Source of the DNA: Bacteroidales bacterium
GTDB lineage: Bacteria > Bacteroidota > Bacteroidia > Bacteroidales > NBLH01
NCBI GenBank assembly: GCA_016937695.1
Contig: JAFGWC010000024.1
Span: 1 to 49,377, forward strand
Direction: 5' to 3'
Length of the DNA stretch: 49,377 nucleotides
Within the stretch, counting starts at the first letter, position 1; every line of letters starts with the position of its first letter. The notes below the pieces were generated by a model. The model worked only from the letters and a program-made list of their open reading frames with translations, was not told the origin of the DNA and did not search any database. The position numbers and the translations under genes are program-made. Positions 9,588 to 24,168 of this stretch are shown here, in pieces.

Positions 9588-10973
9588 ATGAAACATATAT
9601 TTTATATTTTTTTAATTGTTCTTATTAATTCTACTTTTATTAATGCTCAAGAAATTAATGTATTAGATATCGACGAAAGCGAATTTCCGCTTATTAAAGC
9701 AAAAATTGAAATTAAAAGCACAGAAAATCACATTTCCGGAAATTTTAAAATATTAGAAAACAGCCAAGCTATTAATTTTAATATTGATTCAATTTCTTGT
9801 GAAAAGGAAGGCAAAACTGTTCTTTTTTTATTAGATAACAGATTTTATCAAAATCAAAAATCATTAAAAGAAATATCAAATATAATTTCAAATTCGATAA
9901 AAAATTTTAACGAAAATGATTATGCTAATGTAATCGTAACTTCAAGTAAACAAGATGATTACGAATGCATTATGCCATTAAGTTTTGAATTTACTGATGA
10001 TTTTAATAGTTTTTCCGACAATTTATATCATCATTTCGAATTATTAAATTTAACAAACAATAATTCTGATTTAGATTGTTCTATTGAAAAAAGTTTAGAT
10101 TTTTTCAACTCAAAAAAAAAGCTTACAGATAATAAATTTTTGACTGTGATTGTAAAAAATTTTGATTCAAACTCTATTAATTTAGAAAATCTAAAAAGAA
10201 AAGCGGCAGAATGTAAAATAAATTTAAAATTTGTAGTTTGCGAAAAAAAACAGGAAAAATTAAAATCTGAAGATATTATTATTCAAAATCCCGATTGCAG
10301 TATTCAAAAACTAAAATCAGCTTATGAAAATTCAATTAATATAAACAATAATGGATATTTATATTCTAATAAGTATTTAGTGAAATTTTACACCAAGCAG
10401 AATAAAAAAATAAATAAATTTATAATAAATTATGAAGATAAAACTGTTGAGTGTAATTTTATTCAACCAGAATATATTGGATTTTTTAAAAATAATCTAC
10501 CATTAATTATTTTCTTTACAATTTCCTCAGTTATTTTTTCATTTTTTATTTTCCATTTATATTTTTCAAAAAAGAAAATATCAGAAAGTTTATTCGAATT
10601 AAAAAAATCAATTATAAACAAACAATACAGCTCAAATTATCATCAAATAACTGATGTAAAACACATTACACCAATTGGAAATGAAAAACATTTTCCTAAA
10701 ATGATAATTAAATTTAGAGGTGAAACAAATAATTTTGAAATTAAAAAATTAATTATTAGAATTGGAAGACACAACGATAATGATATTGTAATAGGCGATT
10801 TGACTATTTCAAATCATCATGCAATTTTAACAAACGAAGGCGGCGAATTTTATCTTCAAGATATTGGAAGCACAAATGGAATTATTGTAAACGAAATTAA
10901 AATTTCAAAATCGCTTATAAAACCCGAAGATAATATTAGAATGGGGAAAGCTGCGTTAAAACTAATTTATTAA
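9588..10973 (+). CDS. Membrane protein with exported VWA-like region and cytoplasmic FHA domain
   Basis: The ATG at 9588 is preferred over an upstream TTG (9546) because it starts a clean signal peptide (MKHIFYIFLIVLINSTFINA). This gives 461 residues. Residues about 60-240 look like a VWA/Rossmann fold ('KTVLFLLDNRFY...', 'FLTVIVKNF') but the DxSxS metal motif is absent. A transmembrane helix lies near 310-330 (LPLIIFFTISSVIFSFFIFH). The C-terminal FHA domain, about 380-461, has the phosphothreonine-binding signature 'IGRHNDNDIVI...TISNHHA...DIGSTNGIIVN'. The layout suggests an exported sensing module tied to an inner domain that reads phosphothreonine. No Ser/Thr kinase gene is nearby. The FHA call is firm; the VWA-like call is moderate. 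Confidence 0.85.
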   Translation: MKHIFYIFLIVLINSTFINAQEINVLDIDESEFPLIKAKIEIKSTENHISGNFKILENSQAINFNIDSISCEKEGKTVLFLLDNRFYQNQKSLKEISNIISNSIKNFNENDYANVIVTSSKQDDYECIMPLSFEFTDDFNSFSDNLYHHFELLNLTNNNSDLDCSIEKSLDFFNSKKKLTDNKFLTVIVKNFDSNSINLENLKRKAAECKINLKFVVCEKKQEKLKSEDIIIQNPDCSIQKLKSAYENSININNNGYLYSNKYLVKFYTKQNKKINKFIINYEDKTVECNFIQPEYIGFFKNNLPLIIFFTISSVIFSFFIFHLYFSKKKISESLFELKKSIINKQYSSNYHQITDVKHITPIGNEKHFPKMIIKFRGETNNFEIKKLIIRIGRHNDNDIVIGDLTISNHHAILTNEGGEFYLQDIGSTNGIIVNEIKISKSLIKPEDNIRMGKAALKLIY

Positions 10974-11031
10974 TATATTTAATCAGAAATCTACTTTAAT
11001 TCACAATTAGATTTTAAAACATAAACAACTG

Positions 11032-11496
11032 TTATTCAAAATGATACAAGAATATTAGATTTGCTTCTAATGCAGGTTTTTGTTGATTTTTAATTTCTAA
11101 AATAATATTTAATTCAGCTTTTGTTATTCCTCGCAAATTTTTAACAGAAACAAGTTTTGCTTTCATCCGTAGCTCACTATCTACCAATACAGCTTGATTA
11201 AATTTCAGCTTTTCAATGCCATAGTTTACCATCATTTTCACATTTTTAAATTCGGTAATTTGCTCCCATAAATGCGGCATAACTGAAACGGTTAAAAATC
11301 CATGTGCAATTGTATTTTTAAACGGACTTTCAATTTTTGCTCTTTCAGGATTTGTATGTATCCATTGATGATCAAGTGTTGCATCGGCAAACATATTTAT
11401 TTGCTCTTGCGTTATTTTAATATAATCTGAAACACCAAGTTCCTGACCTACATATTGTTCAAATTCTTCAAAACTTCCAATTATTAATTTGCTCAT
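11032..11496 (-). CDS. MaoC-like hot-dog hydratase
   Basis: The ATG at 11496 (MSKLIIGSFEEFEQYVGQEL) is preferred to one ten codons upstream, giving 154 residues, typical for single-domain MaoC proteins. The hot-dog signature is complete: 'FADATLDHQWIHTNPERA' with the catalytic Asp and His, then 'PFKNTIAHGFLT'. Family members hydrate trans-2-enoyl-CoA to 3-hydroxyacyl-CoA, as in R-specific enoyl-CoA hydratases, though exact substrates vary. It stands alone on the minus strand, with no beta-oxidation or polyhydroxyalkanoate gene beside it, so the pathway cannot be fixed. Confidence 0.85.
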   Translation of the reverse strand: MSKLIIGSFEEFEQYVGQELGVSDYIKITQEQINMFADATLDHQWIHTNPERAKIESPFKNTIAHGFLTVSVMPHLWEQITEFKNVKMMVNYGIEKLKFNQAVLVDSELRMKAKLVSVKNLRGITKAELNIILEIKNQQKPALEANLIFLYHFE

Positions 11497-11754
11497 TATT
11501 ATATATTTTGTAAAAAAATCAGCCAAAGATAGATTTTTTTTTTAATATTTATTGGAGTTTGAATTAATATCTATTTGATTTTTTATTGTATTTTTTAACA
11601 ATAAAATAGAAATATTTTAAAACTGCCAAATTGCTATAATATTGTATATCAGCAATTTAACGATTTTAAAAATTAGTCTAAATTAATATTTATCAAAAAA
11701 AGAAATTCCGTAAAATATTGGAAGAAATTTGCTTTAATTCAAATAAAAGCTGAA

Positions 11755-12672
11755 CTAAAATTTTTCTCTGTAAAAATGACAGTATGGTTGAGCGCCTTTA
11801 TTTTTGTAATAATCCTGATGATAATCTTCAGCATCCCAAAATTTTGATGCTTTACTTAATTTTGTAGCAACTGTAATTCCTTTTGCTTCAAGCTTTTTAA
11901 TAAGTTTTTCAGTAATTTCTTTTTGCTTTTCTGATATGTAAAAAACTTCAGAACGATACTGTTCGCCAATATCAGGTCCCTGACGGTCTATCTGACTTGG
12001 ATCATGCGTATTAAAAAATATAATACAAAGCTCTTCATACGAAACAATATCAGGATTAAAAACCACTTTAACTGCTTCTGCATATCCGGTTGTTTTGCTG
12101 CAAACTTCTTCATAGCTTGGATTTTCTTTTTTTCCGCCAATGTATCCAACAGTTGTTGAAAGAACTCCTTTTTGTTTTTGTAGCCAATATTCTGTTCCCC
12201 AAAAACAGCCTGAAGCAAAAATTGCAGTTTCTGTTTTTTGAATTACTACAGGCGAAAAATTAAGCGAAACCGAGTTTACACAATGTCTTGTGTTTTTGTC
12301 TGTAAAGCCCTCACCTTCAAACACATGCCCAAGATGTGCGCCGCAATTTGCACAAACAATTTCTGTTCTATGTCCGTCTTTATCTAATACTCTTTTCACT
12401 GCTCCTTCAATTTCATCATCAAAAGAAGGCCAGCCGCAATTTGATTCAAATTTAGAATCGGATTTGAATAAAGCAGCATCACATCTTTTACAATTATAAG
12501 TGCCTTTTTCTTTAAAATTATTATAAATACCTGTAAATGGTGCTTCTGTTCCTTTGTTAATTATAACGCTCTTTTCAGCATCTGTTAATTTATTGTAATT
12601 CATATTTGCTTTTTCCTGACAGTTTGTAAAACTATACCTAAATAAAATTAGTAAAATAAAAACACTTTTCAT
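11755..12672 (-). CDS. msrBA: Exported MsrB-MsrA fusion methionine sulfoxide reductase
   Basis: This 305-residue bifunctional enzyme repairs both stereoisomers of methionine sulfoxide in protein. The N-terminus (MKSVFILLILFRYSFTNCQE) is a signal peptide; Cys18 could be a lipoprotein site, though the lipobox is poor. The MsrB domain (about 25-140) has zinc ligands in CKRC (61/64) and CANC (107/110) and catalytic Cys131 in 'TRHCVNSVSL'. The MsrA domain (about 147-305) has its catalytic Cys156 in 'GCFWGTEYW' and ends 'CHFYREKF'. The B-then-A order is the reverse of the streptococcal or Neisseria MsrA-MsrB order, but is known from other bacteria. An exported location implies repair of envelope proteins and needs an electron donor from elsewhere. 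Confidence 0.95.
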   Translation of the reverse strand: MKSVFILLILFRYSFTNCQEKANMNYNKLTDAEKSVIINKGTEAPFTGIYNNFKEKGTYNCKRCDAALFKSDSKFESNCGWPSFDDEIEGAVKRVLDKDGHRTEIVCANCGAHLGHVFEGEGFTDKNTRHCVNSVSLNFSPVVIQKTETAIFASGCFWGTEYWLQKQKGVLSTTVGYIGGKKENPSYEEVCSKTTGYAEAVKVVFNPDIVSYEELCIIFFNTHDPSQIDRQGPDIGEQYRSEVFYISEKQKEITEKLIKKLEAKGITVATKLSKASKFWDAEDYHQDYYKNKGAQPYCHFYREKF

Positions 12673-12794
12673 CTTATTTTTTTCATCAAAAAAAGCTAAA
12701 ATTTATTTTTAATAAAAACGCTTATTTAGAATTAATCTAAAAAACCCACTTTTATAATAAAAAACTTTTTATTTCAGCTAATAATAAAATCCCT

Positions 12795-15350
12795 CTACGA
12801 TGATTTCATCGGCAATTTATATCTTCTAACTCCATCAAAAGCATAAAAAGCATTTGCAACGGCTGCTGCTGTTGGAACTAAACCAATTTCGCCAATTCCT
12901 TTTGCTCCATAAGGTCCAATCGGGTCTTTTACTTCAACTCCTTTTACAGTAATTTCAGGTGTTTCATGTGCACGAAGTACACCAAGTTTTCTAAATTTAT
13001 CATGTACTAAATAACCATCTTTCATTGGTAAATCTTCAGAAATAGCATAACCCAGTCCCATGTGTACTGCTCCTTCAATTTGTCCTTCAAAAAGCATTGG
13101 ATTCATTATTTTGCCTGCATCATGTGCTGCAATAATTTTTTCAATATAGCCATTATCATCTAAAACACAAACTTGCGCTGCGTAACCATAAGAATAGTGC
13201 GTAATCTGCTCATTTACAGCAACTCCGGGTTTTGTTGTCCAATCACAAGCAAACTCGCCATTGTATGTTTTTCCTGATAAATCTTTTAATGATTTAGTTT
13301 TTAAATCTTCTTTTAAGGTTTTGGCAGCATTAATTACAGCTAAACCTACAAGCGCTGTTGCTCGAGAAGAAGTTGTCATTCCTGTTTTTATTTGAGCTTC
13401 TGTATCAACAATTACTTCAATAATTTCAGGTTTGACATCAATTTCCTGACAAAGAGTTTGAAGCGCCATATTGTGCACTCCTTGTCCCATTTCTGTCCAT
13501 CCGTGATGCAGTTTTATTTTATTTTCTGATATTATTTCAATTTTCACTTTTGATTCGTCAACCATTCCGTTTCCAACTCCTGAATTTTTTATTGCACAAG
13601 CTAAACCTGCGTATTTTGCATTATAAAAATCATCTTTAACGGCATCTAAACAAGCTCTAATACCAACACCTTGCAATTTTTGTCCTGTAGATGTTGATAA
13701 ACCATCTACCAATGCATTATCATATCTGAATTTCCAACGATCGAAACCGGCTTTTTCACAAATATCATCAATACAGCTTTCCAGTGCAAAAGCGACCTGA
13801 TTTGCACCAAAACCTCGCATCGCTCCACAAGGGATATTGTTGGTATACACCGTTTTAGCTTCAATATCAATTTCAGGAATAAAATATCCGCCGGCAGCAT
13901 GTCCGGCAACTCTTTCCAAAACTTTCATGCCAACAGAAGCGTAAGCTCCTGTATCGCCAATTGCTCTAAGTTTTAAGGCTGTTAGTTTACCTTTTTCATC
14001 AGCGCTAAGCTCAATATCCATAATTACAGGATGCCTTTTGGGATGTAAACGGATTGATTCTTCTCGCGTAAGTGTCAGTTTTACAGGTTTTTGCGTTAAA
14101 TATGCGAAAAGAGAACAATGTCCTTGTATACTTAAATCTTCTTTTCCGCCAAAACCGCCACCATTTGGAACCAGAGTTACTCGCACTTTTTCTTCTGGTA
14201 AGCCCAAAATCATTGCTACTTGCCTTCTGTCTTCATAAACTCCTTGGCTTTGACTAAAAAGTTCAATTCCGTTATCGCCATATGGTTGAGCCACAGCAGC
14301 TTCTTTTTCCATAAAAGCATGTTCAATTCTTTGAGTTTCGTATCTGCCTTTTGATGTATATTTTGAGTTTTTTATAGTTTTTTCGGCATTGCCAATTGTA
14401 AACTGTGTTGTGTCAAAATTATTTGGCCTTTCGGGATGAACTCTGTCGCCTTCTATTGCTTCAAAAACATCTGTAACAGGCTGATATACTTCGTATTCTA
14501 CCTCAATTAATTCAACTGCTTTTCTTGCAATTTCTTCAGTACTTGCAACAACTCCGGCAATAACATCGCCAATATAATGAGTTGTTTCGCCTTGGTCAAT
14601 CATTACCGGCCAATCTTTTAAAATCAGCCCAACTTTTTTCTCGCCCGGAATGTCTTTTGCTGTAAAAACTTTTTCAACACCTTCAAGTTTTTGAGCTTTT
14701 GAAATATGTATTTTTAAGATCTTTGCTTTTGGATAATCGCTTAATTTTAAGGCAGAAAACAGCATTTGGTCAAGGAAAATGTCATCAACAAAATTACGTT
14801 TGCCTATTGCCGTTTCGTAAGCCTGATATTTTGGTTCTGAAATTCCTATTTTTCCTGATGTTTTTCTAATTTCAACATCTCTTTTTTCGTTAATCGCTTT
14901 TGCTGCAGCAAATACTCCGCTTTCAATTTTTTTATATCCTGTGCATCTGCAAAGATGTGGTTTTAAGGCGGTTTGTATTTGATTAATATCTGGATTCGGA
15001 TTGTCTTGAAGTAAAACTTTTGTTCTTGAAATAATTCCAGGTGTACAAAATCCACATTGAACTGCGCCTTCATTTACAAAAGATTTTGCAATTGTATCAG
15101 TAATATATTTCGAGAAACCTTCGATTGTAAATATCTCAGTATCTTGCAGTTTGCTCATTTTTGTTACACAAGAAAGTTTAGCTTTACCGTTTATTTCAAC
15201 AGTGCATGCACCACATGCAGCTTGTGCAGAACATCCATCTTTTACTGATGTTATTCCTTTTTCTAATCTAAGATATTTTAATAAAGATTGTTCAGGATTT
15301 CCTTGGTATGTTTCCTTTTTTCCGTTTAAATAAAAGCTTATCATTTTCAC
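12795..15350 (-). CDS. Molybdenum hydroxylase, fused [2Fe-2S] and molybdopterin subunits (aldehyde oxidoreductase/xanthine dehydrogenase family)
   Basis: This 851-residue protein carries the plant-ferredoxin cluster ligands Cys40, 46, 49 and 61 (DGCSAQAACGACT). The second [2Fe-2S] cluster uses Cys99, 102, 134 and 136 (QCGFC, HLCRCTGY). The remainder is the molybdopterin-binding part, with the Moco-contact motif 'GGGFGGKE', 'GAMRGFGANQ', and the catalytic-base Glu near 821 in 'GAKGIGEIGL'. The FAD domain of xanthine dehydrogenase is absent. The organisation is that of Desulfovibrio-type aldehyde oxidoreductase (MOP), which passes electrons to a separate acceptor. Substrate (aldehyde, purine or N-heterocycle) cannot be told. 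It has no signal peptide, so it is cytoplasmic. It follows sufT on the same strand after 258 bases and is a plausible client of that Fe-S operon. Confidence 0.92.
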   Translation of the reverse strand: MKMISFYLNGKKETYQGNPEQSLLKYLRLEKGITSVKDGCSAQAACGACTVEINGKAKLSCVTKMSKLQDTEIFTIEGFSKYITDTIAKSFVNEGAVQCGFCTPGIISRTKVLLQDNPNPDINQIQTALKPHLCRCTGYKKIESGVFAAAKAINEKRDVEIRKTSGKIGISEPKYQAYETAIGKRNFVDDIFLDQMLFSALKLSDYPKAKILKIHISKAQKLEGVEKVFTAKDIPGEKKVGLILKDWPVMIDQGETTHYIGDVIAGVVASTEEIARKAVELIEVEYEVYQPVTDVFEAIEGDRVHPERPNNFDTTQFTIGNAEKTIKNSKYTSKGRYETQRIEHAFMEKEAAVAQPYGDNGIELFSQSQGVYEDRRQVAMILGLPEEKVRVTLVPNGGGFGGKEDLSIQGHCSLFAYLTQKPVKLTLTREESIRLHPKRHPVIMDIELSADEKGKLTALKLRAIGDTGAYASVGMKVLERVAGHAAGGYFIPEIDIEAKTVYTNNIPCGAMRGFGANQVAFALESCIDDICEKAGFDRWKFRYDNALVDGLSTSTGQKLQGVGIRACLDAVKDDFYNAKYAGLACAIKNSGVGNGMVDESKVKIEIISENKIKLHHGWTEMGQGVHNMALQTLCQEIDVKPEIIEVIVDTEAQIKTGMTTSSRATALVGLAVINAAKTLKEDLKTKSLKDLSGKTYNGEFACDWTTKPGVAVNEQITHYSYGYAAQVCVLDDNGYIEKIIAAHDAGKIMNPMLFEGQIEGAVHMGLGYAISEDLPMKDGYLVHDKFRKLGVLRAHETPEITVKGVEVKDPIGPYGAKGIGEIGLVPTAAAVANAFYAFDGVRRYKLPMKSS

Positions 15351-15608
15351 TATTTTTTTTGCTAAAATATACAGAAAATTTAATAAACTTCATTTTATGT
15401 AATTGAAAATCAAAAATGAATAATAAGAAACATAAATGTTATCAAATTAAAATTTACATTTTTTTCACAATAGCAATAGTTTTATCGCTGAGTTTTTATT
15501 TCACTACATTTAATTAATCATTCACAAACAACTGATTACCAGCACGATAACTAACGTGAAATTTATTGATTTAAAAATAGCAAATAAAAAATAATAATTA
15601 ATAAAATG

Positions 15609-15935
15609 CTAGAGATATCCTAACATTAATTTAGCTTCTTCGCTCATCATATTTGCTGCCCAAGGCGGATCAAATGTCATTTCTATATTGGTTTTTTTCA
15701 CACCTTCAATTGCATTTATTCTATCTCTTACTTCAATTGGCAAAGATTCTGCAACAGGACAATTTGGTGCCGTTAATGTCATTTTTATATCAACATTATC
15801 GTATTCATCAACATCAATTTCGTAAATTAATCCTAAATCATAAATATTTACAGGAATTTCAGGATCATAAATTTCTTTTAATACTTTAAGTATTTTTTCT
15901 TCTAATTGTAAATAGCTATTATCTTTTGTTTCCAC
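15609..15935 (-). CDS. sufT: SufT, MIP18/DUF59-family Fe-S assembly factor
   Basis: The 108-residue protein is a single MIP18 domain: 'LKEIYDPEIPVNIYDLGLIY' near the N-terminus, 'MTLTAPNCPVAESLP' with the conserved Cys, and the end 'FDPPWAANMMSEEAKLMLGY'. SufT proteins help mature Fe-S proteins, probably as a carrier or targeting factor. It is the last gene of the suf set (sufB-C-D-S-E-T order on the minus strand). It is separated from sufE by 459 bases, nearly all of which is the stem-closed element at 15963-16392. Whether sufT still shares the suf transcript depends on that element. Confidence 0.93.
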   Translation of the reverse strand: METKDNSYLQLEEKILKVLKEIYDPEIPVNIYDLGLIYEIDVDEYDNVDIKMTLTAPNCPVAESLPIEVRDRINAIEGVKKTNIEMTFDPPWAANMMSEEAKLMLGYL

Positions 15936-15962
15936 GATATTTTTATTTTATTTTTTTCTTTA

Positions 15963-16392
15963 AAGTTCCAGGTTTCAGGTTATGTTTTCCAATTAATTTC
16001 TAAATACTGAATAAATTTATTAATCTGTTTACTTAATTGTTCATATTTATTTATCAAATCTGCTAGAGGATTTTCTAAAAAGTGTATTTCACTTATCATA
16101 TTTAACTGAGATATAATTTCATCGCAAGATGCATGTGAAAAAATTAAAAATCGTATAAATTCAGATTTGTATCTTCTTCTGCCAAATCTTTCTGCTATAT
16201 TGTCTTTAATGCTTTTGGAAAACCTTCATATTTGACTTCCTTGTTCGTAAAGTTCGTATTTGGGCAACTACATACTCATTTTATGAACATCAACAGCCAA
16301 TTTATAAGATAATTAATAAACCTCCAAATCTTTATAACTTTTCATTTATTCAAAAATTAATTTGCTAACCTGCAACTTGAAACCTGTAACTT
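15963..16392. mobile_element. Stem-closed intervening-sequence-like element between sufE and sufT
   Basis: The two ends are inverted repeats. AAGTTCCAGGTTTCA (15963-15977) pairs with TGAAACCTGTAACTT (16378-16392) at 14 of 15 positions. Inside lies a broken four-helix-bundle ORF of the type carried by 23S rRNA intervening sequences. Rearranged copies of the same words (CAGGTT, TAACCTGCAACTT) continue just inside each end. The right end stops two bases from the sufE stop codon and the left end lies 27 bases before the sufT start, so the element fills the intergenic space. In RNA the ends would form a long basal stem closing a roughly 400-base loop. It is inferred to be an insertion; no target-site duplication is obvious. 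Confidence 0.6.
15980..16345 (-). pseudogene. Decayed four-helix-bundle (S23 / intervening-sequence protein) ORF
   Basis: Reading from ATG 16345 the frame gives MKSYKDLEVY*LSYKLAVDVHKMSM*, then LPKYELYEQGSQI*, RFSKSIKDNIAERFGRRRYK and onward to 'INKFIQYLEINWKT' and a stop at 15980. It holds 122 codons with no frameshift but three internal stops: TAA at codon 11, TAG near 26 and TGA near 40. The signature 'SxSIxxNIAEGxGR' and 'FxxFLxxAxxSxxE' is that of four-helix-bundle proteins found in rRNA intervening sequences. Each stop sits where relatives usually have Lys or Arg, so each could be one substitution. The gene is almost certainly dead, yet its frame is preserved, pointing to recent inactivation. 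Confidence 0.85.
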
Positions 16393-16394
16393 AT

Positions 16395-16823
16395 TTACTT
16401 ATTTCCCAACTTTGCATTATATGCCATTCCGTACATTTTCATTTGCTTTATCATGGCAGATAAACCATTTGCTCTTGTTGGAGATAAATTATCACTTAAT
16501 CCAATTTCATTAATAAAATACAAATCAGCATTCATAATTTCTTTTGGTTCTCTTTTTGATAAAACTCTAATTATTAAAGCTACAATGCCTTTTGTGATAA
16601 TTGCATCGCTATCAGCACTAAAAATAACTTTATCATCATTAAGTTCAGCATGAAGCCAAACTTTTGATTGACAGCCATTTATCAAATATTCATTAGTTTT
16701 AAATTTAGTATCTATAATTTTTAAATCTTTTCCTAATTCAATTAAATATTCGTATTTATCCATCCACTCATTGAAAATGGCAAATTCTTCAATTATTTGA
16801 TCTTGTATTTCTTGTAATGTCAT
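16395..16823 (-). CDS. sufE: SufE sulfur-acceptor protein
   Basis: SufE takes persulfide sulfur from the SufS desulfurase, stimulates it, and hands sulfur to SufBCD. The 142-residue length fits the family. The acceptor Cys51 lies in the diagnostic 'LINGCQSKVWLHAELND' segment, and the C-terminal half has 'LSPTRANGLSAMIKQMK'. It follows sufS by 86 bases on the minus strand. The stop codon lies two bases from the right end of the intervening-sequence-like element, so any insertion there just spared the gene. Confidence 0.95.
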   Translation of the reverse strand: MTLQEIQDQIIEEFAIFNEWMDKYEYLIELGKDLKIIDTKFKTNEYLINGCQSKVWLHAELNDDKVIFSADSDAIITKGIVALIIRVLSKREPKEIMNADLYFINEIGLSDNLSPTRANGLSAMIKQMKMYGMAYNAKLGNK

Positions 16824-16909
16824 CTATTTTAGAAATTAGTCATTAGTATATTGGCAATTAAAATAAGTGAACTTTTTATCCTTTTACTTTTATCTTAAAT
16901 TAATTTTTT

Positions 16910-18130
16910 TTAATCAAACATCTGTTTTACTTTTAAAATTGCTTCAATAAATCTATCAATTTCTTCTTTTGTATTATAAAAAGCAAAACTTGCACGAATT
17001 GTTCCTGTAATATCGAAATAAGTCATAACCGGCTGTGCACAATGACTTCCTGTTCTAACAGCAATTCCCATTTTGTCTATTATCATTCCTGCATCGTAAT
17101 GATGTATGTTTTTTAATAAAAATGAAATTACAGATGCCTTATTTTTTGCATTTCCAAATATTGTTAAACCTTCTATAGCTTGCATTTTTTGAGTTGCATA
17201 ATTTAAAAGTTCTGTTTCATATTCAGCAATTTTATTTAATCCTATTTCATTAATATAATCAATTGCAATTCCAAGACTTACTGCTCCAACATAGTTTGAA
17301 GTTCCTGCTTCAAATTTAAAAGGTAAATCCAGATAAGTTGATTTTTCAAGTGTAACATGGTCAACCATATCGCCGCCACCTTGATATGGAGGAATTTCAT
17401 TTAAGAATTTTTCTTTTCCATAAAGAACACCAATTCCTGTTTCAGCATATATTTTATGACCGGAAAAAACATAAAAATCGCAATCAATTTCTTGAACATC
17501 AACAATAGTATGCTGAATTGCTTGTGCTCCATCAATTAATACCGGAACATTCTTATTATGAGCAAGTTGCACTATTTTTTTAACAGGATTTATTGTCCCT
17601 AAAGCATTTGAAATATGCGTAACTGCTAAAAGTTTTGTTCTATCTGTTATTAAATCATTAATTTTATCGGTTTCAAGCTCGCCATTTTTATCAAAATGAA
17701 TTATTTTAAGTTTTGCATTTTTTCTTTGACAAAGCATTTGCCAAGGAACAAGATTTGAATGATGTTCCATAGCCGAAACAATAATTTCATCGCCCTTATT
17801 TACATATTTTTCGCCAAATGAAAATGCAATTAAATTTATTGAATCAGTTGTTCCTTTTGTAAAAATAATTTCGTGCTCGTGTTCTGCATTTATAAATTTT
17901 TGAACTTTAGCTCTAACATCTTCATAGGCTTTTGTCGATTTTTCGCTTAATAAATGAACTCCTCTATGAATATTGCTGTTTATTGATGAATAAAATTCAC
18001 TTACAGCATTTATTACTTGAATTGGTTTTTGTGTAGTTGCTCCGTTATCAAAATATATATAATCTTTGCCATATATTTTCTGATTTAAGATTGGAAAATC
18101 TGCTCTAATTTTTTCTATATCAAAGTTCAT
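16910..18130 (-). CDS. sufS: SufS cysteine desulfurase
   Basis: This PLP enzyme converts L-cysteine to alanine and an enzyme-bound persulfide. The 406 residues show the group II features: PLP Lys226 in 'FSGHKIYAETGIGVLYG', a PLP-ring His near 123 (MEHHSNLVPW), Asp200 in 'LIDGAQAIQH', and the persulfide Cys364 in 'VRTGSHCAQPVM'. The start gives the expected 'MNFDIEKIRADFPIL'. It lies between sufD (55-base gap) and sufE, so desulfurase and acceptor are made together. Confidence 0.96.
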   Translation of the reverse strand: MNFDIEKIRADFPILNQKIYGKDYIYFDNGATTQKPIQVINAVSEFYSSINSNIHRGVHLLSEKSTKAYEDVRAKVQKFINAEHEHEIIFTKGTTDSINLIAFSFGEKYVNKGDEIIVSAMEHHSNLVPWQMLCQRKNAKLKIIHFDKNGELETDKINDLITDRTKLLAVTHISNALGTINPVKKIVQLAHNKNVPVLIDGAQAIQHTIVDVQEIDCDFYVFSGHKIYAETGIGVLYGKEKFLNEIPPYQGGGDMVDHVTLEKSTYLDLPFKFEAGTSNYVGAVSLGIAIDYINEIGLNKIAEYETELLNYATQKMQAIEGLTIFGNAKNKASVISFLLKNIHHYDAGMIIDKMGIAVRTGSHCAQPVMTYFDITGTIRASFAFYNTKEEIDRFIEAILKVKQMFD

Positions 18131-18185
18131 TTGAATTTAAAGTTTACGGTTTACAACTAACAATAATAATTCTGATTTTTTAAAA

Positions 18186-19547
18186 TTATTCAATATTATC
18201 GCATCCCGGACATCCACTAACCATAGCACATTGTCCGTCAACTTTTTCGCCATTTAACCTATTGTTTACCAATATGTTAACAAATATTTTCAATGGTTCT
18301 ACTTTAATTGCGTCAATAACATCAGAAATAAAAGCGCCTAAAAGTAAAACTTCTGCTCGTCGTCTGTTAATTCCTCTTGATTGCAAATAAAATAATGCTT
18401 CTTTGTCTATTTGTCCTGTTGTAGAACCATGCGAACAACTAACATCATCGGCATAAATTTCTAATTGAGGCTTACTGTTTACTTTTGCATATTGAGTTAA
18501 AAGTATATTTCTATTTGTTTGGTCGGCAATTGTTTTTTGAGCACCTTTTCCAACAAATACTTTACCAAGAAAAACTGCTGATGCTTTATTGTCAATAATT
18601 CCTTTATATATCTGATTACTAGTTCCGTGCGGTTTTGCATGATTAATAAAAATATTATTATCGAAATGCTGTTCTCTGTCGGGCAAATAGAGTCCGAAAA
18701 GATTTGTTTCGCAATTTTCGGCTTTATGCTCAATTTTTAAATCGTTTCTAACAATTGAGCCGCAAAGTGTAATTGTATGACTGGAAAAATTACTGTTTTT
18801 TTCCTGATTTACTTTTGTACTATTTATCTGAAAAGCATCATCGCCTTCACCTTGAAAAATATTAAAGTTTAAATTTGCATTTTCTTCTAAAATAATTTCT
18901 GTAGAGATATTTGTTAATGTGTAATTAACTGTTAATGAGTGAAAACTGTTTACAATTTGAACATTACTATTTTTTCCTGCAATAATTAAATTCCGGTATT
19001 GCGAAATGGTTTTTTTATTATTTCCATCAGAAAAATTAATAATATGAATAGGTTTATCGAGCGCCAAATTATTTGGTATTGAAATAAATGATCCATCAAA
19101 ACTAAATGCTGTATTTACTGATGTAAAAAAATTTTCTGATGAAATATCAGTATTTTCAAAATATTTATTAATTAATTCAGGATTTGATTTTTTTGCATCA
19201 GCAATATTTTTAATAATTAATCCTTTATTGTTTAAAATTTCATCCGAAAATTGTTTTGAATAAAAACCATTAATAAAAACTAATCTGTATGCATTAAGTC
19301 CGGGAATTGTAAATAAATTTACTTGATTTTTATCTAAATCAAGATTTTCGCCAATAAAATATTTATGTTGTAATATTTTTCTGATACTTGTATGTTTCCA
19401 CTCTTCATCAGCTTTTGTTGGCAAATTATATTTTTTAAGATTATTTGCAGCCAGATTAATAAAATTTTCCTCAGCAAATGATTTTGATTTACTGTTTTCA
19501 AAAATAGCAACAAATTCTTCTTTTGAAAGTTCGTTTTTTAAAGCCAT
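18186..19547 (-). CDS. sufD: SufD, subunit of the SufBCD Fe-S scaffold
   Basis: The 453-residue protein has the SufB/SufD beta-helix core. Landmarks are 'ADEEWKHTSIRKI' at the N-terminus, 'FIINHAKPHGTSNQIYKGI'-type sequence in the core, and 'YADDVSCSHGSTTGQID...FYLQSRGI' near the C-terminus. SufD pairs with SufB and SufC, and is involved in iron entry to the scaffold. The C-terminus is unusual in ending 'VSGCPGCDNIE', a CxxC-type pair that could bind metal; I cannot say how widespread it is. The gene lies 77 bases after sufC and before sufS. Confidence 0.94.
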   Translation of the reverse strand: MALKNELSKEEFVAIFENSKSKSFAEENFINLAANNLKKYNLPTKADEEWKHTSIRKILQHKYFIGENLDLDKNQVNLFTIPGLNAYRLVFINGFYSKQFSDEILNNKGLIIKNIADAKKSNPELINKYFENTDISSENFFTSVNTAFSFDGSFISIPNNLALDKPIHIINFSDGNNKKTISQYRNLIIAGKNSNVQIVNSFHSLTVNYTLTNISTEIILEENANLNFNIFQGEGDDAFQINSTKVNQEKNSNFSSHTITLCGSIVRNDLKIEHKAENCETNLFGLYLPDREQHFDNNIFINHAKPHGTSNQIYKGIIDNKASAVFLGKVFVGKGAQKTIADQTNRNILLTQYAKVNSKPQLEIYADDVSCSHGSTTGQIDKEALFYLQSRGINRRRAEVLLLGAFISDVIDAIKVEPLKIFVNILVNNRLNGEKVDGQCAMVSGCPGCDNIE

Positions 19548-19624
19548 AATTATTTTTTTATTGTTTAATGTTATATTGTTTAATTATTATTTAGCAATTT
19601 AACATTTTAACAGTGTAACAGTTT

Positions 19625-20386
19625 TTAATCATTTTCTTTCTTAATCCAATCATATCCTTTTTCTTCAAGCTCTAATGCTAATTCTTTTCCTCCTGTTTTT
19701 ACAATTTTACCGTTATATAAAACATGCACAACATCAGGAACAATATAATCCAGAAGTCTCTGATAATGAGTAATAACCAAGAAAGCGTTTTCTTTATTTT
19801 TTAATTTATTTACACCATTTGCAACTATTCTTAAAGCATCAATATCAAGTCCGGAATCTGTTTCGTCTAAAACTGCAAATTTTGGTTCGAGCATTGCCAT
19901 TTGAAAAACTTCGTTTTTCTTTTTCTCGCCGCCTGAAAAACCTGTGTTTACAGCTCTGTTTGCAAGTTTAGCTTCAATTTCAACCAAATCCTTTTTTTCT
20001 TGCATCATTTTTAAAAACTCAGAAGGTGTAAGTTGCTCTAATCCTTTGTGTTCTCTGTGTTGTTCAACAGCTGCTTTCATAAAATTAGTAATCGAAACGC
20101 CCGGAATTTCAACAGGATATTGAAAAGCTAAAAACATTCCTTCTCTCGAACGCTCTTCTGGCGACATGCTTAACATATCTTTTCCCTGAAAAGTAACCGA
20201 ACCGTTTGTAACTTCGTAAATTTCGCGACCTGCTAATACAGAAGCTAGAGTGCTTTTACCTGAACCATTTGGTCCCATTATAGCGTGTACTTCGCCTTCT
20301 TTTATTTCTAAATTTATTCCTTTTAATATTTTTTTTCCTTCGATTGAAGCTTTTAAATTTTTTATCGATATTAATGTTTTTGCCAT
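19625..20386 (-). CDS. sufC: SufC, ABC-type ATPase of the SufBCD scaffold
   Basis: This 253-residue ABC ATPase has Walker A 'GPNGSGKST' (38-46), a Q-loop 'LAFQYPVEIPG', and the signature 'SGGEKKKNE' (151-159) where SufC keeps K-K-K-N in place of Q-R. Walker B is 'AVLDETDSGLD' (about 171-181) and the switch His lies in 'VITHYQRLLDYI'. ATP-driven dimerisation of SufC reshapes the SufB-SufD pair during cluster assembly. It is soluble, without a transport partner, and flanked by sufB and sufD on the same strand. Confidence 0.97.
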   Translation of the reverse strand: MAKTLISIKNLKASIEGKKILKGINLEIKEGEVHAIMGPNGSGKSTLASVLAGREIYEVTNGSVTFQGKDMLSMSPEERSREGMFLAFQYPVEIPGVSITNFMKAAVEQHREHKGLEQLTPSEFLKMMQEKKDLVEIEAKLANRAVNTGFSGGEKKKNEVFQMAMLEPKFAVLDETDSGLDIDALRIVANGVNKLKNKENAFLVITHYQRLLDYIVPDVVHVLYNGKIVKTGGKELALELEEKGYDWIKKEND

Positions 20387-20472
20387 TTTTTTTGTTTTAT
20401 ATTTTTATGCTACTTGAGCAGAATGATTTTTAAATATATATTGTAAAATACTAATTATCAGCAATATAATTA

Positions 20473-21924
20473 TTATCCGACGCTGTTTTCTAATGTAAGT
20501 GAAAGTAATTTTTGAGCTTCCATTGCAAATTCCATTGGTAATTTATTCAATACTTCTTTTGCAAATCCGTTAACTATAAGACTAACAGCATCTTCTGTAC
20601 TTAATCCTCTTTGATTACAGTAAAATATCTGATCTTCAGATACTTTTGAAGTAGTAGCTTCATGTTCAACTATTGCCGTTGCATTTTCCGATTCGATATA
20701 AGGAAAAGTATGTGCTCCACATTTATCGCCCATTAATAAAGAATCGCATTGAGAATAGTTTCTGGCATTATTAGCCTTTGGTGCAATTTTAACCAATCCT
20801 CGATAACTATTATTGCTATGTCCAAGCGAAATACCTTTTGAAATAATTGTACTTCTAGTATTTCGGCCTAAATGAATCATTTTTGTTCCAGTATCGGCTT
20901 GTTGATAATTATTTGTAACAGCTACAGAATAAAATTCTCCAACAGAATTATCGCCTTTTAAAATTGTACTCGGATATTTCCAAGTAACAGCAGAGCCTGT
21001 TTCTACTTGTGTCCAAGATATTTTTGAATTATCGCCTTTGCAAATTCCTCTTTTTGTAACAAAATTGTAAACTCCGCCTTTTCCGTTTTTATCGCCAGGA
21101 TACCAATTTTGCACAGTAGAATATTTTACTTCGGCATCTTTTAATGTAATTATTTCCACAACTGCAGCATGTAGCTGATTTTCATCTCTTGATGGTGCAG
21201 TACAACCTTCAAGATAACTAACATAACTTCCTTCATCAGCTATAATTAATGTTCTTTCAAACTGACCTGTATTTGCCTGATTTATACGAAAATACGTAGA
21301 AAGTTCAACAGGACAACGTACTCCTTTTGGAATATATGCAAAAGAACCATCTGTAAAAACAGCAGAATTAAGTGCAGCATAAAAATTATCTCCGACAGGT
21401 ACAACTGAAGCCATATATTTTTGAACTAAATCAGAATGTTTTTGTATTGCTTCACTTATCGAGCAAAATATAATTCCTTTTTCTTCTAGAGTTTTTTTAA
21501 AAGTAGTGTGTACAGAAACGCTATCCATAACAACATCAACAGCTACGCCTGATAAAATTTTTTGTTCTTCTAATGGTATTCCTAATTTCTCAAATGTTTT
21601 TATAAGATCAGGGTCAACCTCATCCAAACTATTATATTTAGCAGCATTTTTTGGTGCTGCATAATAGCTAATACTTTGAAAATCAGGCTTTTCATATTTT
21701 AAATTTGCCCAATTAGGCTCTGTCATTGTTTTCCATTTCTCGAATGCCTTTAAACGAAATTCAAGCATAAATTCAGGTTCATTTTTTTTTTCTGATATTC
21801 GCCTTATGATATCTTCATTTAAGCCTATTTCAAAAACATCTGTTTCAATATCGGTTACAAAACCTGCTTCGTATTCTTTATTGCTTAATTCATTAATTAT
21901 TCTATCATCACTTGTTTCACTCAT
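20473..21924 (-). CDS. sufB: SufB, core scaffold subunit for Fe-S assembly
   Basis: The 483-residue protein matches SufB throughout: '[19 protein letters not shown]' at the N-terminus, '[18 protein letters not shown]', and '[20 protein letters not shown]'. The C-terminal segment '[20 protein letters not shown]' holds the Cys that accepts sulfur and helps hold the nascent cluster. SufB is the first gene of the operon (sufB-C-D-S-E-T). The candidate promoter lies about 80 bases upstream, with a stem-loop in the leader. Confidence 0.97.
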
Positions 21925-21947
21925 GACTTGATTTTTTATTCAATTTT

Positions 21948-21976
21948 AAGCTGGAATTAAATTACAAATCCAGCTT
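21948..21976 (-). promoter_or_regulatory. Stem-loop in the sufB leader
   Basis: AAGCTGGA (21948-21955) and TCCAGCTT (21969-21976) form a perfect 8-base-pair stem with a 13-base loop. It lies between the candidate sufB promoter and the sufB ATG at 21924. On the minus strand the stem is followed by 'AAAATTGAAT', so it is not an intrinsic terminator in the suf direction. It may be a leader structure or operator; the role is unknown. Confidence 0.45.
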
Positions 21977-22000
21977 ATTTATACTCATTCTAAATAAAGG

Positions 22001-22008
22001 CAAAGATA
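22001..22008 (-). promoter_or_regulatory. Candidate sufB promoter -7 element
   Basis: The minus strand reads TATCTTTG, matching TAnnTTTG. About 20 bases further upstream is TTTTAG, a weak -33. A transcript from here would carry a leader of roughly 70 bases containing the stem-loop. Confidence 0.45.
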
Positions 22009-22067
22009 GAAAAATTTTATTTGTCTAAAAGGATTTATTTAAATTTAGTCCAAATTTTAACAATTTT

Positions 22068-22475
22068 TTATTTAATCCCTTTTTCTTTTAAAAAAGCCGA
22101 ATATTTTTTATCCTCTACTTTAATATGTTGATAAAGCCAATCTCTTAAAAATGTTCCAACTTCAACAGGCAGAACCATTTTATTATTTTCAAGTCTGTTT
22201 TTAACTTCCTCTATTTTTGAAATATAAACCTGATGTAGTTTTTTATGACTTTCGGCTTGAGAATATAAAAATTTATCAAAATACCTTTCTTCGTTCTTGA
22301 AATGAAAATTTGTATAATTCAATAATTTTCCGATAAGTATTTTTAATCCCTGATTTGATTGTTTTTGACGAACCGCTTCATAATAATCGTTTATCATTAC
22401 AAAAAGCGTTTTGTGTTGATCGTCAATTGATTGAATATCAACGCTATAATCATTTGTCCATTTAATAAATTCCAT
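22068..22475 (-). CDS. Bacteriohemerythrin
   Basis: This 135-residue protein is a single hemerythrin domain, a four-helix bundle that binds O2 at a di-iron site. All the usual ligands are visible: His21 (IDDQHKTLF), His58 and Glu62 (NFHFKNEERYF), His77 and His81 (SHKKLH), His117 and Asp122 (YQHIKVEDKKY). The length and the N-terminal 'KWTNDYSVDIQSIDDQHK' are typical. It has no fused sensor domain, so it likely stores, delivers or buffers O2, perhaps shielding oxygen-sensitive enzymes. It lies upstream of the suf operon on the same strand, but has its own candidate promoter, and sufB has one as well. Confidence 0.96.
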   Translation of the reverse strand: MEFIKWTNDYSVDIQSIDDQHKTLFVMINDYYEAVRQKQSNQGLKILIGKLLNYTNFHFKNEERYFDKFLYSQAESHKKLHQVYISKIEEVKNRLENNKMVLPVEVGTFLRDWLYQHIKVEDKKYSAFLKEKGIK

Positions 22476-22500
22476 AATTTTTGTTTTTAGTTAAACTATG

Positions 22501-22531
22501 CAAAACTATTTATTATTCATTTAACAAACAA
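22501..22531 (-). promoter_or_regulatory. Candidate bacteriohemerythrin promoter
   Basis: On the minus strand TTG (22531-22529), 20 bases, then TAGTTTTG (22508-22501) matches the Bacteroidota -33/-7 pattern. The -7 element lies 25 bases before the ATG at 22475. Confidence 0.5.
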
Positions 22532-22737
22532 TTTATTAACACACATAATGTTTGTTTCTTTTTTGTTGAGTAAAAAAATATACTAGAAATAATATTTTCC
22601 ATAATACCATTCGTAGAAAATATTTTAGAGCTAAATATTAAAAAATTTTAACAACATTTAACATTCTTTATTGCTAATTTTGAAAAATCAAAAGTTACAT
22701 TTATGACTTGAATACAGCAATACTAAAAAACCATAAA

Positions 22738-24168
22738 ATGAAAAGCATCCATTTCCCATTTCACATATTAACCATTGCCCTATTTATTGGACTTATTGTT
22801 CCTGTGCTAATACAAGACGGTATGTTTATGGACGGTCTACTTTATACATGCGTAGCAAAAAATGCAGGTAATGGAATTGGCACTTTTTGGTTTCCAATAA
22901 GTGATGCAACATGGATAATTGATGGTGTAAAAAGTTTCCATGAACACCCACCGTTGGTTTTTGCTATTCAATCGTTCTTTTTTAAAACCTTAGGCAACAG
23001 TATGTATGTTGAGCGTTTCTATTCTTTTCTAACTGCTTGTATTACAGTGCTTTTAATAATTTTTGTATGGCGAGAAATTTTCAAAGAGAACAAAGAAATG
23101 TTGAAATTTAGTTGGTTACCCGTATTATTTTGGGTTATTGTGCCACTAACTCATTGGACTTTCCAGAACAATATGCAGGAAAACACCATGGGAATATTCT
23201 CACTTTCAGCGGTTTATTTTATTTTGAAAGGGATGAAACAACAAAACAGAGCATTTTTATATATTTCAATTTCAGGGATTTTTATTTTTCTAGCTTCTTT
23301 TTCGAAAGGTGTGCCCGGATTATTTCCAATTGGTGCGGTTGGTTTGTATTGGCTAGTCTATAAAAAACCTTCATTTTATAAAGCTGCACTTTACACAGTC
23401 ATTCTTGCCATTATTCCTGCGGTCATATATTATTTGTTGATACAAAATCCTGACGCAAAAGAAGCTTTGTCGTTTTATTTAAACCACAGGCTATTGGGTA
23501 GGATTGAAGCGGCACATACTGTAAGCAAACGTTTTCATACAATTATTGGTTTGGTTTCGCATTTATTACCTGTATTAATTATAGCGGCTATATTGTTGAT
23601 GGTTTTTAAGAAAAAATCGATTAAAAATTATTTTGAGCAAAAAAAAGAATTTCTATTTTTCATTTTAATTGGATTAAGTGCATCTCTTCCTCTTATGCTA
23701 ACGTTGGTTCAGAAGGATTTTTATTTTTCACATTCTATTCCGTATTTTGGAATTGCCTTTGCATTATTGCTTGCTCCTGGTATTGCGTTGCTTGTAAGTA
23801 AAATTGATATGGAAAAGAAAGGCTTTAGAATATTTAAGTTTGTTGCATACTTTCTATTGGTTTTTGCACTGTCTTTTTCAGTTTACAATATTGGTGGTCA
23901 AAGCCGCAACAGCAAAGAATTACATGATATTCATCTTATCGGATCTGCTATTCAAGGTACCGAAATTATAGACATAGATCAATCCATTGCAGAACAGTGG
24001 AATACCCGATATTACTTGGTTCGTTATTACAACCTTAGTTCATCATCAGGCACCAATAATAATGATTATTTGATTATTCAAAAAGAAAATACTACAAGTG
24101 TACCAAATGGTTATCAAAAAATTAATTTAGACACTGAAAAATATGAGTTGTTTGAAAAAATCAAATAA
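22738..24168 (+). CDS. Membrane glycosyltransferase, GT39/ArnT-like
   Basis: The ATG at 22738 (MKSIHFPFHILTIALFIGLI) is preferred over a TTG at 22708. The product has 476 residues and about ten to twelve membrane helices. The first external loop holds 'DGMFMDGLLYTCVAKNAGNG' and 'FHEHPPLVFAIQSFFFK', the acidic residue and 'HPPL' pattern of the PMT/ArnT (GT39/GT83) clan. These enzymes move a sugar from a polyprenyl-phosphate donor to lipid, protein or glycan outside the cytoplasm. Donor and acceptor cannot be told. Its base use looks more mixed (more G/C-ending codons, more TTG Leu) than that of its neighbours. It sits beside a decayed region, so horizontal origin is possible. No glycan cluster surrounds it. 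Confidence 0.8.
   Translation: MKSIHFPFHILTIALFIGLIVPVLIQDGMFMDGLLYTCVAKNAGNGIGTFWFPISDATWIIDGVKSFHEHPPLVFAIQSFFFKTLGNSMYVERFYSFLTACITVLLIIFVWREIFKENKEMLKFSWLPVLFWVIVPLTHWTFQNNMQENTMGIFSLSAVYFILKGMKQQNRAFLYISISGIFIFLASFSKGVPGLFPIGAVGLYWLVYKKPSFYKAALYTVILAIIPAVIYYLLIQNPDAKEALSFYLNHRLLGRIEAAHTVSKRFHTIIGLVSHLLPVLIIAAILLMVFKKKSIKNYFEQKKEFLFFILIGLSASLPLMLTLVQKDFYFSHSIPYFGIAFALLLAPGIALLVSKIDMEKKGFRIFKFVAYFLLVFALSFSVYNIGGQSRNSKELHDIHLIGSAIQGTEIIDIDQSIAEQWNTRYYLVRYYNLSSSSGTNNNDYLIIQKENTTSVPNGYQKINLDTEKYELFEKIK

Follow-up and report, generated by a model that had tools for sequence, protein, structure and literature searches.

Described sequences close to the element considered here include the intervening sequences (IVSs) of rRNA, of which some, not all, encode the S23/IVP four-helix protein (PF05635, TIGR02436), and short repeats such as STRR, the heptamer repeats of cyanobacteria. 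Passages of PMC4990558 describe the Xanthomonas S23/IVP protein as a toroidal homopentamer, give a length of 428 nt for the Coxiella IVS, similar to that of our block, and state that these four-helix proteins have 'no known function'. The TAACTGA repeats of Beggiatoaceae, like STRR, are tandem 7-base units between genes, as are the ends of our cassettes; unlike the latter, they come with no linked gene in the relevant part of PMC4679880, which says of their transfer that 'no mechanism is evident'. In a CRISPR survey (PMC3936711) cas loci contained 18 IVP genes, and a gene list for Flavobacterium columnare has a four helix bundle gene between those for guanylate kinase and nicotinic acid mononucleotide adenylyltransferase (part of PMC5524665); both may record cassettes lying between operon genes. 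The homology to the IVS gene and the complementary ends are already known. In a literature search that covered subscription journals thinly, we found no description of such cassettes, that is, of their placement at operon junctions, their ends of tandem 7-8 base units or the pairing of repeat word with protein.

The window, by which we mean the whole 49,377-nt stretch of contig JAFGWC010000024.1 from a Bacteroidales bacterium, contains a suf operon (Table 1). A first-pass annotation had placed within it, between sufE and sufT, an element resembling an IVS, with ends complementary to each other and a four-helix-bundle gene inside, and this we confirm. The terminal inverted repeat (15963-15981 / 16374-16392) is complementary at 17/19 positions (89%), and the local score of the end match, 39, was equalled by 0/5000 shuffles and by 0/1294 equally spaced segment pairs from the window. 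The outer end was also correctly placed, two bases past the sufE stop codon, where the 5' array starts. On the minus strand the unit consensus is ARGTTNC, present four times at the 5' end, with three reverse units at the 3' end. Chance was considered as the origin of this palindrome and is ruled out by the shuffles, the window pairs and the flank permutations across the family given below.

The open reading frame itself did not survive inspection, although its homology did. A read-through profile search gave a PF05635 (23S_rRNA_IVP) match at 16016-16333 on the minus strand (E 3.1e-22), but TGA, TAG and TAA interrupt the frame inside the match, and of the pieces between stops the longest has 81 amino acids (PF05635 E 3.9e-12). 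The pseudogene runs in the direction of the suf operon, and the TAA at its end overlaps with the 3' array. No further frame of note lies inside the block, so that no known transposase or recombinase is encoded there. The suf copy is dead as a gene and is probably a decayed cassette, of which nothing but the ends and the wider spacing persists.

Table 1. Features of the suf operon and of the block between sufE and sufT (window coordinates).
Feature	Position	Strand	Basis or remark
sufT-like gene, downstream of element	15609..15935	minus	PF01883 E 2.7e-20
3' end array	15961..15981	minus	AACCTGA AACCTGG AACTTTA, reverse complements of 5' unit; sequence and inverted repeat
23S_rRNA_IVP four-helix-bundle pseudogene	15980..16345	minus	single frame, three internal stops
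5' end array	16365..16392	minus	four 7-base units AAGTTAC AGGTTTC AAGTTGC AGGTTAG; sequence and inverted repeat
sufE, upstream of element	16395..16823	minus	PF02657 E 5.8e-46
sufS	16910-18130	minus	Pfam Aminotran_5; named by domain and order
sufD	18186-19547	minus	Pfam SUFBD_core; named by domain and order
sufC	19625-20386	minus	Pfam ABC_tran; named by domain and order
sufB	20473-21924	minus	Pfam SUFBD_core; named by domain and order

Six genomes of the same genus were searched and three gave a sufE match; their sufE-sufT gaps are short, at 85, 77 and 16 nt, compared with 459 nt here. Elsewhere in the order the suf operon is occupied repeatedly, with cassettes upstream of sufD in G003 (L119, G003:C607), between sufB and sufC in G043 (L063, G043:C21), and at both sufB-sufC and sufD-sufS in G030 (L121, G030:C4), in addition to the sufE-sufT position in the window.

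PF05635 genes occur in at least 45 of the 60 genomes searched, our own included, with about 150 among the matches listed. From 30 loci, 80 regions taken from the matches listed and four loci of our own genome, we obtained 123 domain matches, of which 112 were full length, 111 complete and 107 distinct with both flanks, in 37 genomes; the broken suf copy was left out of this set of 107 and included in a set of 32. Across the 107 elements the inverted match between the two flanks had a mean score of 32.4, and flanks drawn from different elements averaged 16.4 (0/10000 permutations); 73 exceeded the 95th percentile of mismatched flank pairs, and the remaining 34, below that percentile, are without a clear inverted repeat. 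The best period was 7 in 52/107 upstream and 54/107 downstream flanks, and 8 in 23 and 27, respectively; in shuffled upstream flanks period 7 was best in 15 and period 8 in 11. The arm as read inwards had more G than C in 58 of the 73 elements with a clear repeat and less in 7, which suggests that the words of different cassettes are related by descent. We had considered the G richness of the 5' arm as a strand polarity and dropped the idea, because in an inverted repeat it amounts to a G-rich inward word.

An intact cassette, then, is one S23/Avd-type four-helix gene between two inward-reading arrays in which a unit of 7-8 bases is repeated in tandem, and such cassettes are found in several phyla. 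They share with the rRNA IVS the homologous gene and the complementary ends, and differ from it in lying between protein genes and in ending in lineage-specific tandem arrays; a search for an rRNA location gave no Rfam match in positions 10000-24000 of the window and none at 20 other element loci. MITEs, and those transposons in which each end bears several transposase sites, likewise have inward repeated sites and short gene-less copies, and they share terminal inverted repeats with the cassette; unlike a transposon, the cassette has no transposase and its units are very short.

The repeat word follows the protein. For pairs of elements from different genomes, protein identity correlated with similarity of the ends (r 0.31, 0/2000 permutations); protein pairs of at least 55% identity (145) had an end score of 28.7, compared with 19.7 for shuffled flanks, and pairs below 35% (300 drawn) scored 19.7 compared with 19.2. 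We also scanned named genomes for one subfamily and kept the best 80 of at least 546 loci; two records are common to this named sample and the order sample (L087 = L217 and L153 = L261). Among these best 80 of at least 546, AATTA(C/G)G or AATTAAG reads inwards on both sides of 65/80 loci and the AATTA-type word stands in the reverse sense in 2/80; among the exceptions, L269 and L273 carry other words and L240 hardly any. In the order sample this word flanks both sides of 1/83 elements lacking the protein motif GTS(I/V)GA and 5/24 of those possessing it, the latter fraction showing that word and protein are less tightly paired at greater distance. The best 80 of at least 546 are mostly from Bacteroidota, and 17 records are titled as other groups (Chlorobiota, Ignavibacteria, Planctomycetota, Verrucomicrobiota, Lentisphaeria, Cyanobacteria, Gammaproteobacteria, Desulfobulbus, Deltaproteobacteria, Nitrospirota, Omnitrophota and Shapirobacteria); 12/17 of these carry the AATTA-type word on both sides, and all 17 are metagenome assemblies, so misbinning is possible. 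Four plasmid copies in complete records (Euhalothece, Bernardetia, Treponema and Nostoc) have 7-base arrays of differing words, less clearly inverted in Treponema, and those of Nostoc and Euhalothece resemble the cyanobacterial heptamer repeats. The Nostoc copy (L353, Nostoc sp. ATCC 53789 plasmid pNsp_b), a four-helix gene with GTCGCAA/GACTTGC arrays, adjoins xisH-xisI genes. The sampled protein closest to the suf copy, L160 (42/79 residues identical), comes from another family of the order, and its arrays of G(G/A)GTTGC are near the ARGTTNC of the suf copy; a second array of a different word lies between the G(G/A)GTTGC array and its start codon. These observations suggest that the gene and its framing repeats travel together as a dispersed element.

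Our own genome has three further PF05635 genes, all intact and flanked by short repeats unlike the suf word, so the suf terminal words, which the first-pass annotation thought might recur around other four-helix ORFs, do not do so here. A family spread between genes does exist, as that annotation proposed, but its members share no single terminal word; one word for the entire family is ruled out, the units being lineage-specific. The suf word does recur in our own genome, as seven gene-less palindromes (0 for a reversed-pattern control). Four of the seven, two identified by pattern and two by eye, apparently belong to a MITE-like repeat whose ends are near CAATGTCGTTTAGTTAA, and part of the spread of the word may therefore stem from another element. 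Copies of the MITE-like repeat are L203 (G000:C89:24087), L210 (C114:30109), L202 (C61:10958) and L209 (C114:5092), and some copies in our own genome hold a suf-type heptamer palindrome mid-element; the repeat is also present at the sufE-sufT junction of G043 (L098), in a copy without such a palindrome.

Related cassettes lie at unrelated loci, unrelated cassettes lie at the same operon junctions, and empty sites exist. In 37 of 41 pairs with at least 62% protein identity neither flank showed homology; the four sharing flanks are L144/L001, L158/L180 and L196/L192 (each of the last two on one side) and the tandem pair in L173. This last locus (G033:C67:66536-67383) holds two near-identical four-helix genes in tandem, as one repeated block. 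Conversely, different cassette lineages occupy the same junction at sufB-sufC (protein identity 0.47) and at what we take, from the protein ends, to be murE-mraY (0.22), gmd-fcl (0.28) and a nuoE-nuoF-like pair (0.27). At a Flavobacterium junction, presumably of dapF and a GNAT gene, examined in 30 genomes, an AATTACG cassette is present in three (L321, L324 with a broken frame, and L347), gene-less inverted arrays in L326 and L328 (0/300 shuffles each) and, more weakly, in L327 (4/300), and other long inserts in L323, L330, L334 and L345; in 18 further genomes the gap is 8-103 nt, and L337 and L342 were unreadable. The gene-less arrays of L326, L327 and L328 use an AGATTNN-type word. The spacers at filled sites did not align with those at empty ones, and no target duplication, one mark of a transposon or MITE, was defined.

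At a convergent junction of genes that we assume to be DUF6048-like and rlmL-like, elements with 79-94% protein identity lie in opposite orientations, L225 against L231 and L260, with L221 agreeing with L225 on the single flank that they share; in blastn alignments the flanks matched on the plus strand and the element on the minus. The contig of L225 comes from a metagenome; the left array contains a run of N, so that this side may be scaffolded, and the right side is continuous. Both orientations at one convergent junction point to DNA. As regards neighbouring genes, which were called with a simple ORF caller, 74 of 96 elements have both in the sense orientation, 4 both antisense and 18 mixed, and a second count gave 57, 1 and 13 (n = 71). 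Sense orientation was dropped as a sign of insertion at the RNA level, because ordinary middle genes show an equal bias (133/140 and 24/27).

Copies from the same genome have a mean protein identity of 0.32, compared with 0.30 for others, and being hardly more alike they give no sign of bursts of transposition; the spread of the cassettes may be mostly horizontal. No viral contig carrying L001 was found, and phage records gave two partial matches.

The protein of an intact relative, L215 from Flavobacterium sasangense, is predicted to be a four-helix bundle (pLDDT 95) and matches PF05635, with bAvd below the cut-off (E 0.01) and nothing else; in Foldseek it matches 2rld (BT_0352 of Bacteroides thetaiotaomicron VPI-5482) and 2gsc, each of five chains. 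The cassette protein is under purifying selection, dN/dS being 0.06-0.16 in the 8 pairs, out of 25, that allowed its computation; of the others, one showed no differences and the remainder were saturated. Avd of diversity-generating retroelements has the same fold by a weaker Foldseek match (4dwl and the reverse-transcriptase complex 8ub7, 8ube; E 0.037 and above). Unlike Avd systems, the element has no reverse transcriptase, and our own genome gave 0 PF00078 matches. Among the matches listed, copy numbers of four-helix and reverse transcriptase genes are weakly correlated (Spearman 0.36, p 0.004, without control for genome size), their presence is not (Fisher p 0.25), and 10/30 genomes with at least three four-helix genes have no reverse transcriptase; a dependence on this enzyme was accordingly rejected.

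The first-pass annotation had read the block as an intervening sequence of mRNA, the arms pairing in the suf transcript and RNase III cutting the basal stem, which would uncouple sufT from sufBCDSE. Complementary ends and sense orientation are in keeping with this, the block folds more stably as RNA than 100/100 shuffles (z -4.75), and the rRNA elements with the homologous gene are cut by RNase III, as stated in part of PMC4990558. Selection for an RNA helix should favour G-U over A-C among arm mismatches, however, and in 81 + 74 elements no G-U excess was seen: the ratio of G-U to A-C was 127 to 145 in the order sample and 58 to 75 in the named one (best 80 of at least 546), or 30 to 30 and 19 to 28 (again best 80 of at least 546) when tallied per element. 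Composition matters in this test, since mismatches in a cross-element control also lean to A-C (G-U 386, A-C 511), and the end arrays are redundant, so cleavage would be compatible with the lack of bias; a conserved RNA stem, kept for processing as had been supposed, is nevertheless not supported. Taking in also the location outside rRNA, the two orientations at one junction and an orientation bias no stronger than that of ordinary genes, we regard mRNA processing as distinctly unlikely.

Repeats and protein might alternatively form an autoregulatory circuit, in which a ring would bind its own heptamers in the mRNA leader, much as TRAP binds repeats, and the cassette would be an ordinary gene with regulatory sites. 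The five-chain relatives, the purifying selection, the repeats that follow the protein and the position of the 5' array, directly ahead of the start codon in many copies, would all fit; the inverted pair on both sides of the gene, the absence of an RNA-level bias, the scattered positions, the inversion and the gene-less copies would not, and we consider this explanation unlikely. If the arrays were instead local products, of hairpin slippage or as MITE interiors, in or near which four-helix genes merely settle, the seven palindromes, with four apparently within the MITE-like repeat, and the gene-less arrays at the Flavobacterium dapF junction would be accounted for. The agreement of unit and protein lineage at unrelated loci would be left unexplained, which makes this origin very improbable.

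We think it rather probable that the suf block is the relic of a cassette operating at the DNA level, in which the protein recognises the end repeats of that cassette. The protein would form a ring, probably five-membered like its solved relatives. Bound to the repeat of its own lineage in both end arrays, this ring would join the two ends or, on single-stranded DNA, keep them folded as hairpins, and an enzyme supplied by the host or in trans could then move or invert the cassette. The protein has no catalytic domain, which would leave movement to an enzyme from outside the cassette, and the fact that the cassette encodes no known nuclease counts against this reading. Sense-oriented sites between operon genes may survive because little harm is done there. 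It is possible, and we put this forward tentatively, that these cassettes form a cross-phylum class of enzyme-less mobile elements with coevolving protein and word, of which the cyanobacterial and other heptamer repeats are partly footprints and the rRNA IVS a branch settled in rRNA. The lineage-specific pairing of protein and repeat links the question of S23/IVP function with that of heptamer repeat transfer.

Elsewhere in the window, an ORF at 11755-12672 on the minus strand resembles, by eye, a fused MsrB-MsrA methionine sulfoxide reductase.
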